Positions 44,175 to 46,184 of a DNA stretch of 64,000 nucleotides are shown here, piece after piece. How positions within the stretch are numbered: the first letter of the stretch is position 1; each line of letters starts with the position of its first letter. The translations under genes and the position numbers were made by a program. Origin of the DNA: Chloroflexota bacterium (lineage in GTDB: Bacteria; Chloroflexota; Dormibacteria; Dormibacterales; Dormibacteraceae); the NCBI GenBank assembly GCA_005880795.1, contig VBGP01000031.1, positions 1-64,000 on the forward strand, written 5' to 3'. The notes under the pieces were generated by a model, which saw only the letters and a list, made by a program, of their open reading frames with translations, was not told where the DNA came from and made no database searches.

Positions 44175-44639
44175 CTGCGGACGTTTTATGTCGTGCGCCA
44201 CGCGAAGGCGGGGAGCCGCAGCCACTGGTCGGGCGACGACCGTCTCCGGCCTCTGAACAACAAAGGAAAGAAGCAGTCCGAGGAGCTCGTTGCGGTCCTC
44301 AAGCCGTTTCGAATCTCCGACATCTTCTCGAGCCCATACCTGAGGTGCATGCAGACCGTCGAACCACTCGCGCGTGCCCGCCGCCTCCAGGTCAAACGGT
44401 CGCCGTCGCTCGAAGAGGGGCACGGCCTCGAGGGTTTGACCGAGTTCCTCGGCGATCGATCGCTTGCCGACGTCGTGCTCAGCACGCACGGCGACATCGT
44501 CTGGGAGCTGGTCGAAGACCTGGTTGAGCGTGAGCTGATCAAGGCGGGGGAAGGTGGGTACGAGAAGGGCTCCACCTGGTTGCTCGAGGTGGACGATCAT
44601 GGGGTCGCCGAGCGAGCGCGCTACATCGCGGCCCCCTGA
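44175..44639 (+). CDS. sixA: SixA-type phosphohistidine phosphatase
   Basis: About 154 residues. Histidine-phosphatase motif FYVVRHAKAGSRSHW at the N-terminus, LNNKGKKQSEELVAVLK, SSPYLRCMQTVEPLA, and STHGDIVWELVEDLV with the second catalytic His. No ATG is available at the conserved N-terminus; CTG 44175, 1 nt after the CHAD stop, matches the usual MRTFYVVRHAKAG beginning. Frames starting earlier lie in the CHAD gene. May act on phosphohistidine proteins or phosphorylated small molecules in polyphosphate metabolism. Confidence 0.82.
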   Translation: MRTFYVVRHAKAGSRSHWSGDDRLRPLNNKGKKQSEELVAVLKPFRISDIFSSPYLRCMQTVEPLARARRLQVKRSPSLEEGHGLEGLTEFLGDRSLADVVLSTHGDIVWELVEDLVERELIKAGEGGYEKGSTWLLEVDDHGVAERARYIAAP

Positions 44640-44651
44640 GGGGCGCGATGC

Positions 44652-44717
44652 GACCAAATGTGCCCGAATGGCGGCATATTCATGGGAGGGATTCGACCAT
44701 GTGTGCCCGAATAGCGG
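44652..44717 (+). repeat. imperfect 23-bp direct repeat upstream of the selenoprotein gene
   Basis: Copies at 44652-44674 and 44695-44717 (period 43 nt) share 20 of 23 positions around the core TGTGCCCGAAT. They fill the gap between sixA and the -10 box at 44762. May be two binding sites for a regulator, or an old duplication. Confidence 0.55.
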
Positions 44718-44761
44718 ATCCCGGGTAGGGAAGTCTGGCTCCTGCGGCTCGAGTTGGGTGC

Positions 44762-44767
44762 TAACGT
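44762..44767 (+). promoter_or_regulatory. leaderless -10 box (TAACGT) of the selenoprotein gene
   Basis: TAACGT, 6 nt, GTG 44774. Supports GTG 44774 as the start and shows that the gene has its own promoter rather than being a decayed tail of the ppk operon. Confidence 0.6.
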
Positions 44768-44773
44768 TCGGCG

Positions 44774-45502
44774 GTGCGCGCCGTAGTCGTCACGGTGTTG
44801 ATCGATCTGCCGGCCAATCACCGGTTTCATCGCGCGACCCTCGCTGCGCTCGAACATGCGTCGGAGCATGGGCGGATCCCCCTTGATGTCCGTGTCGTGT
44901 GCACGGATGAGGTTCAAGACGCTTCTCGGATCGCCGCAGCCGGATCGGCTGTCATCATCGGGCCCGGCAGCCCGTACCGCGATCCGGAGGCTGCCCACGG
45001 GGTGGTGCGGGCAGCGCGCGAACGCAAAATCCCGCTTGTCGGGACCTGAGGTGGCTTTCAACACGTGCTGGTCGAGCACGCTCGGAACCTTGCGGGGGTA
45101 AGCGATGCTGCCCACGCCGAGTACGGCCCCGGTGGCACCCCCGTTATCACTCCGCTCGAGTGTTCGCTCCAGGACCAGACCATCGCGGTTGACCTCGCGC
45201 CTGGGTCCCTCCTTGCCGACCTGTATGGCAGCCAGCACGCGATCGAGTACACGACGTGCTCGTACGGGCTGGCACCCGAAATGCAGCACATCGCGCGCGA
45301 GTATGGGATGCGAATCGCGGCCACCGACGGCACTGGAGAGGTCCGTGCCATCGAACGGGTCGACCACCCGTTCTTCGTAGGGACGCTCTACCAGCCTCAA
45401 CTCCGATCAGCGCCGGGCGCGCCACACCCTGTCTTCGTCGGGCTCCTCGACGTTTGCGCGCGGCGTCGCGTACCGCGGTTTTCGGTTGAGCAGTCTTCCT
45501 AA
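44774..45502 (+). CDS. CTP-synthase C-terminal-region-related protein, probable selenoprotein (TGA at nucleophile codon)
   Basis: 242 residues when the in-frame TGA at 45047-45049 (codon 92) is read through. Homologous to the glutaminase domain of CTP synthase but without the synthetase half: DLPANHRFHRATLAALEHA, PGSPYRDPEAAHGVVRAARERKIPLVGT-[TGA]-GGFQHVLVEHARNLAGV, and HPFFVGTLYQPQLRSAPGAPHPVFVGL. In CTP synthase the codon here is Cys of GTCGGFQ, the glutamine-attacking nucleophile, so Sec is predicted. The catalytic pair HPE aligns with QPQ (Gln207, Gln209), so the charge relay is gone and glutaminase activity is unlikely. A SECIS-like hairpin with a GGUC loop follows. I recall databases listing a 'CTP synthase C-terminal region-related (seleno)protein' family, function unknown. 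It overlaps the start of the AlkD gene by 17 nt. Alternatives: nonsense pseudogene or sequencing error. Confidence 0.85.
45064..45080 (+). promoter_or_regulatory. bacterial SECIS hairpin of the CTP-synthase-related gene
   Basis: CGTGCT (45064-45069) pairs with AGCACG (45075-45080), 6 bp, with a 5-nt apical loop GGTCG (45070-45074). The first loop G is 20 nt after the TGA. The loop start GGUC is the same as in the classic E. coli fdhF SECIS loop recognised by SelB. Strong support for Sec insertion. Confidence 0.8.
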
Positions 45503-46184
45503 CGCGTACGGGGAGAAGATCGCCTGGCTTCGTCGTGAGATGACCGCGGCGGCCAACCCGCAAAAGGCCGCGGGCATGCAGTCATATATGAAATCGACCA
45601 TGCCGTACTACGGAATCAACTTGCCCGAGGTCAGGGCGATCAGCCGCAGGGTCTTCGACGGCATGGACATGAGCTGCGGCGAGTGGCGCAACGCAATTCT
45701 CGAGCTGTGGCGCGGCGCGCGATATCGCGAGGAGCGCTATGCGGTCCAGTTCCTGCTCACGATGAGGAGCCACGTCGACTGCCTCACGCCATCAGACATG
45801 GCGATGCTGGAGGAGCTGGTCACGAGCGGCGCCTGGTGGGATCACGTCGATGAGCTGGCGACGGTGATCGGTGAGCTGCTGCGGAAATATCCCAAGCGAA
45901 TCCGGCCGCTGATGCGGCGCTGGAGCGCCGACGCGAACATGTGGAAGCGGCGGGTGTCGATCATCTGTCAGCTGAGGTTCAAGCGTGACACGGACCTCGA
46001 TCTGCTTTACGCGAACATCGAGCCCAACCTCGCCGATCGCGAGTTCTTCATTCGCAAAGCCATCGGATGGGCGCTGCGCCAGTACGCGTGGACAGATCCC
46101 AAAGAGGTGGCGCGCTACGTGCGCGCTCATGAGGCGCAGCTGAGCGGCCTGAGCCGGCGCGAAGCCTTGAAGAACATCAGCTAG
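45486..46184 (+). CDS. AlkD-like DNA alkylation repair protein
   Basis: 232 residues from TTG 45486 (overlapping the previous gene). HEAT-like helical repeats of the DNA_alkylation family: KSTMPYYGINLPEVRAISRRVF, NAILELWRGARYREERYAVQFLL, SGAWWDHVDELATVIGELLRKYP, NMWKRRVSIICQLRFKRDTDLDLLYANIEPNLADREFFIRKAIGWALRQYAWTDP. The WWDHVD and RRVSI..IRKAIGWALR elements carry the Trp, Asp and Arg residues used by AlkD to excise alkylated bases. Cytoplasmic base-excision repair. Confidence 0.9.
   Translation: MSSLPNAYGEKIAWLRREMTAAANPQKAAGMQSYMKSTMPYYGINLPEVRAISRRVFDGMDMSCGEWRNAILELWRGARYREERYAVQFLLTMRSHVDCLTPSDMAMLEELVTSGAWWDHVDELATVIGELLRKYPKRIRPLMRRWSADANMWKRRVSIICQLRFKRDTDLDLLYANIEPNLADREFFIRKAIGWALRQYAWTDPKEVARYVRAHEAQLSGLSRREALKNIS

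Follow-up and report, generated by a model that had tools for sequence, protein, structure and literature searches.

A probable selenoprotein with a predicted CTP synthase glutaminase-like fold and a substituted catalytic triad in a Chloroflexota genome

That stand-alone relatives of the C-terminal domain of CTP synthase (PyrG) include selenoproteins is already published, and in this respect our observations are not new. A selenoprotein labelled 'glutamine amidotransferase (COG0504)' was described by deep-Sep in Desulfosediminicola ganghwensis, together with further TGA-containing homologues (PMC12013277), and a 2026 review lists from deep-Sep a NF004836-type selenoprotein with the motif GxUxG (PMC13188914). 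The NCBIfam entry NF004836, also known as PRK06186, bears the name 'CTP synthase C-terminal region-related (seleno)protein', and it is the family name to which the sequence-only reading of this locus had referred. Among open-licence papers we found no functional literature on PRK06186, and no discussion of triad replacement in the family.

The gene described here lies on the plus strand at 44774-45502 of a stretch of 64,000 nucleotides, which we call the window. Like the proteins above, its product is a stand-alone domain which matches the family profile over the full length and belongs to a group with selenocysteine (Sec) or Cys at the nucleophile of the GxUxG motif. The match to NF004836 (E 7.6e-66, 221.5 bits) covers residues 6-228 of the protein and positions 3-227 of the 228 profile positions, and is far above that of every other family. 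The score is, however, lower than the curated cut-off of 260 bits, and the same is true for all seven members of the clade to which the protein belongs, the 221.5 bits of the window protein being the best among them. From the profile scores, the clade can most aptly be regarded as a divergent sister group outside the curated border of NF004836. It differs from the deep-Sep protein also in being Sec-only in the sequences sampled, and in its distribution: its members were found in Actinomycetota, Planctomycetota and the window's own phylum, as against Desulfosediminicola.

The reading frame starts with GTG at 44774, ends with TAA at 45500-45502, and is interrupted by a single internal stop, a TGA at 45047-45049, which is codon 92 of 242. 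Translated with TGA as Sec (U), the surrounding sequence is ...KIPLVGTUGGFQHVLVEHARN..., thus the putative Sec92 sits in the nucleophile elbow G-T-U-G-G-F-Q. An open frame across a TGA was rejected as evidence by itself: the window, which has a GC content of 66%, contains 38 frames of this length or more that bridge a TGA, by chance or by shadowing. The argument rests on the homologues. A scan of GTDB species contigs yielded six relatives of the window protein (L052-L057; five actinobacterial, one from Planctomycetota), which are 52-57% identical to it and all have TGA at the identical codon. Homology to the six relatives extends to both sides of the TGA, with 41-50% identity upstream and 55-64% downstream, and the nucleotide changes fall mostly at third codon positions. 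Because the relatives share the TGA at the same codon, and because the homology flanks it, we conclude that the two halves form one gene. Other homologues have Cys at the aligned codon, consistent with the earlier suggestion, made from the DNA letters, that the TGA takes the place of the nucleophile Cys of GTCGGFQ in a single, otherwise unbroken frame; the homologue alignment recommended at that time has now been made, and shows TGA or Cys at codon 92. The possibility that a sequencing or assembly error changed TGC or TGT to TGA might be raised by the draft state of the assembly (217 contigs), but independent assemblies of other organisms, at 52-57% identity, carry the TGA as well, which refutes this explanation for the clade and leaves it extremely improbable for the window.

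Two more TGA-containing members, L084 and L087, come from genomes that belong to the same phylum as the window. Members with Cys occur in the same phylum and, as a search of plasmids showed, also in Klebsiella, Enterobacter, Methylobacter and Streptomyces; no relatives were found among viral contigs. In a maximum-likelihood tree built from an alignment of 32 sequences (28 stand-alone rows and four PyrG rows), the window protein and its six relatives form an all-Sec clade of seven with a support of 100/100. The Sec rows L084 and L087 fall among Cys rows, and two to three changes between Sec and Cys are required on the tree. Another branch with 100/100 support parts the 28 stand-alone CTP-synthase-tail proteins from the four PyrG rows, and the window protein groups with the former, not with CTP synthase.

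A hairpin resembling the bacterial SECIS element follows the TGA at 45064-45080 on the plus strand. It has a 6-bp stem, with arms at 45064-45069 (CGTGCT) and 45075-45080 (AGCACG), and the loop GGTCG at 45070-45074; the distance from the TGA to the first loop G is 20 nt, and its energy in the model scan is -8.0 kcal/mol. The bSECIS model prescribes a loop of 3-9 nt with a G in one of the first two positions, a stem of 4-16 bp (PMC13188914, Fig. 2), a spacing of 16-37 nt and a minimum free energy not higher than -7.5 kcal/mol (PMC13188914), and the hairpin of the window lies within all of these limits. Its geometry, as well as its likeness in position and loop type to a bacterial SECIS, had been pointed out in the sequence-only reading, and both descriptions hold. 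In eight of the nine Sec members a hairpin occurs whose loop G lies at 20-21 nt; in L084 the model scan found no conforming hairpin, and a comparable structure was absent from the four Cys homologues scanned. As in fdhF-type bacterial SECIS elements, the hairpin comes right after the UGA, has its loop G at 20-21 nt and carries a small GGU-type loop, but the stems of the homologues are short (6-8 bp), some of their hairpins are slightly weaker than the guide value of -7.5 kcal/mol, and two alternative registers occur. One register consists of 6 bp and a 5-nt loop (CGUGCU-GGUCG-AGCACG), the other of 8 bp and a 3-nt loop; the hairpins of the second register pair differently yet fully (CAUGUUCU-GGU-AGAGCAUG and CAUACUCU-GGU-AGAGUAUG). 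Across the Sec sequences, the hairpin is kept beyond what column-wise synonymous codon shuffles produce (p = 0.0086 for the summed energy; p = 0.0014 for the weakest of seven members). Taken alone, the hairpin of the window is not exceptional: synonymous recoding gave p = 0.125, and folding of the whole 48-nt segment gave an uninformative z of 0.12. Recoding of the members as single sequences likewise gave no significant value for any of them (p 0.07-0.30). Covariation counts for a fixed stem are modest because two stem registers occur, and Rfam gave no credible match at the hairpin site. The hairpin evidence is therefore supporting, not decisive.

The genome (a draft assembly of 3.22 Mb, 95.5% complete) contains a tRNA-Sec (selC; 69.7 bits, anticodon UCA) and a SelD gene (346.7 bits). 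The latter is intact and of the Sec type, with an in-frame TGA of its own in the motif GAGUACK; it is located on the minus strand at L020 8831-9889 (G000 contig C170), where it divergently adjoins a gene on the plus strand, from 9862, which looks like an extradiol-dioxygenase/MEMO-type gene. selA and selB were not found in the draft. All selB-like matches in the genome were below the cut-off; the best one (198 bits) ends at position 355 of the 581 profile positions and has another elongation-factor-type match next to it, thus we read it as EF-Tu. Of the sel genes whose absence, according to the sequence-only reading, would speak against Sec, two were thus present and two were missing, and the assembly breaks at the place where the missing two are expected. 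In the bacterial family, selA scores above the cut-off in 36 of the 42 genomes, most of those of the genus among them. In the two congeners examined selA adjoins selB, with MetF- and ArsA-like genes nearby and, in one of them, a ROK-kinase-like gene (names given to these neighbours by visual inspection of their sequences). In the present genome, the sequences flanking this congener operon lie at contig ends, those of C44 and C43, and both contigs break there. It is likely that selA and selB sit in the unassembled interval between C44 and C43, an assembly gap being the simplest reading. Since the end of C44 holds O-methyltransferase-like and HNH-like genes, which differ from those at the same place in the compared congener, a local rearrangement is also possible. 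The presence of selA does not separate Sec genomes from Cys genomes, nearly all of the 18 tested having it. In the 99%-complete genome G313, which carries the Sec form L087, the selA match (G313:C6:30365-31518) consists of two overlapping pieces in different frames; a frameshift, a sequencing error and decay are candidate explanations.

The missing selA and selB genes are what one would expect if the TGA were a real stop, i.e. if the gene were a decayed pseudogene, or encoded a truncated protein of 91 residues, in a lineage which has lost selA and selB. We regard this as very improbable, because six relatives from other phyla share the TGA, the sequence downstream of it is more conserved than the sequence upstream, the genome still has a tRNA-Sec and an intact SelD gene of the Sec type, and near relatives keep selA-selB. 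The observation from which this work started is thus confirmed, and its interpretation as Sec at the nucleophile of a CTP-synthase C-terminus-related protein is supported, since homology, hairpin, tRNA-Sec, Sec-containing SelD and predicted fold agree. On this reading the UGA at 45047-45049 would be decoded by SelB and Sec-tRNA(Sec), with the hairpin at 45064-45080 directing the decoding, and the product would be a single-domain protein of 242 residues that adopts the glutaminase fold of CTP synthase and carries a selenol in its nucleophile elbow.

The AlphaFold2 model, computed from an alignment of the seven clade sequences, has a mean pLDDT of 90.7 and places Sec92 between the strand 88-91 and the helix 93-105. 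The best Foldseek matches are glutaminase domains of CTP synthases (TM 0.85-0.89). The protein thus shares with PyrG the fold and the nucleophile elbow, but it lacks the synthetase domain, has Sec instead of Cys, and differs in further residues. In E. coli PyrG the triad is C379/H515/E517, and the Arg-His-Arg-Tyr motif, with R470, contacts glutamine. In the window protein the catalytic His-Pro-Glu is replaced by Gln207-Pro-Gln209 (45392-45400), and Arg-His-Arg-Tyr aligns to Thr-Cys-Ser-Tyr, with Cys162 of the TCxYG motif (45257-45259) standing in place of the Arg-His-Arg (T-C-x). A further residue, Cys130 of an xCSL motif (45161-45163), is conserved in the family and absent from CTP synthase; all three sites were read from the 32-sequence alignment and are on the plus strand. 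All 28 stand-alone rows have Gln, Val or Leu in the position of the His; Glu has become Gln throughout the Sec clade, whereas some Cys rows retain it. Every member of the Sec clade has Cys130 and Cys162, and so do almost all Cys members. The exception is a divergent group, L094 and L108-L110, which represents a second paralogue in genomes of very large size from the window's phylum; its members keep the nucleophile Cys, lack Cys130 and mostly lack Cys162.

These replacements bear on the question whether Sec simply substitutes for Cys in an otherwise ordinary glutaminase or amidotransferase subunit. Such a protein, also a genuine selenoprotein, would agree with the CTP synthase-like fold and elbow, with the published 'glutamine amidotransferase' label and with the match of Pfam GATase to the window protein. 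We find it improbable, though less so than a real stop at the TGA: the Cys-His-Glu triad of class-I glutamine amidotransferases is reduced to a Sec nucleophile in the Sec clade, with Gln in place of both His and Glu, the catalytic His is lost in every aligned member of the family, the glutamine-binding Arg-His-Arg has become T-C-x, and there is no synthetase domain. The earlier designation of the TGA codon as the nucleophile of a glutaminase fold therefore stands for the fold and the elbow, and the glutaminase chemistry it implied is doubtful, the His being replaced in all family members aligned and the Glu in the entire Sec clade. At neutral pH, selenols exist largely in ionised form. Given that His, Glu and the motif for glutamine binding have been replaced, while two other Cys have been conserved, the chemistry that we consider most likely from the alignment would be that of a selenolate or thiolate needing no His for activation. 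There is about an even chance that Sec92 forms a redox pair with Cys162 or Cys130, and a clearly smaller one that it acts as a nucleophile on an acyl or thioester substrate; a canonical glutaminase seems unlikely, and some chemistry other than redox, acyl or thioester, or residual glutaminase would take up the rest.

In three congeners (G078, G075 and G069) the genes flanking this locus, which encode a SixA-like histidine phosphatase and a DNA alkylation repair protein (Pfam), lie directly next to each other, and the gene is missing. The approximate insert in the window relative to these empty sites is 44640-45519, and none of 16 other genomes of the genus has a stand-alone copy. Accordingly, the most plausible reading is that this gene alone was gained recently, as an insert of about 0.9 kb. 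The gain probably occurred by horizontal transfer within a group spanning Actinomycetota and Planctomycetota. The upstream edge of this insert carries a direct repeat of the 16-base sequence TGTGCCCGAATRGCGG (44659-44674 and 44702-44717, 43 bp apart). A third near-copy is found at G000:C23:3738. Weak matches to the region 44635-44731 are scattered over other loci of several congeners, and this region may therefore represent a small dispersed repeat that is connected with the insertion. The suggestion that the gene has its own TAnnnT box was not borne out: the only match is a loose one (TAACGT at 44762-44767), just before the start codon, and we found no sigma-70-type promoter site for the gene.

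No conserved neighbourhood indicating a substrate was evident around the homologues. On the Klebsiella pneumoniae plasmid pINF355 (L150 5289-6636) a Cys homologue annotated as 'CTP synthase' adjoins genes of DUF523 and DUF488. Since deep-Sep (PMC12013277) also gives a selenoprotein form of DUF523, this family and that of the homologue may share a pathway. On a plasmid of Streptomyces sp. NBC_01708 (L152 1806-5702) a Cys homologue ends a run in which aroA, gpmI and two hypothetical proteins are annotated, which is suggestive of a specialised biosynthetic operon.

Considering everything together, we think it highly probable that the gene encodes a genuine selenoprotein, with hairpin-directed decoding of Sec, which was probably gained horizontally and is unlikely to be a glutamine amidotransferase. 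New in this work are the Sec-only clade below the NCBI cut-off, the apparent gain of the gene in this lineage as an insert and, to our knowledge, the replacement of the catalytic His (often also of the Glu) and of the Arg-His-Arg motif together with the two other conserved Cys. Since the TGA ends the frame for standard gene callers, and since the NCBI cut-off excludes the clade, its proteins are likely misannotated. More tentatively, and at somewhat worse than even chances, the clade may represent a Sec-only glutaminase-fold subfamily which has lost His, Glu and the glutamine-binding residues, uses the selenol with Cys162 or Cys130 for a new redox or acyl-transfer reaction, and has spread between phyla as a single gene. 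The conservation of the nucleophile Cys or Sec and of two further Cys, with His and Glu replaced, gives testable ground to doubt the amidotransferase label for the whole family, and the pattern suggests selenium chemistry in a fold that is rarely associated with redox enzymes.
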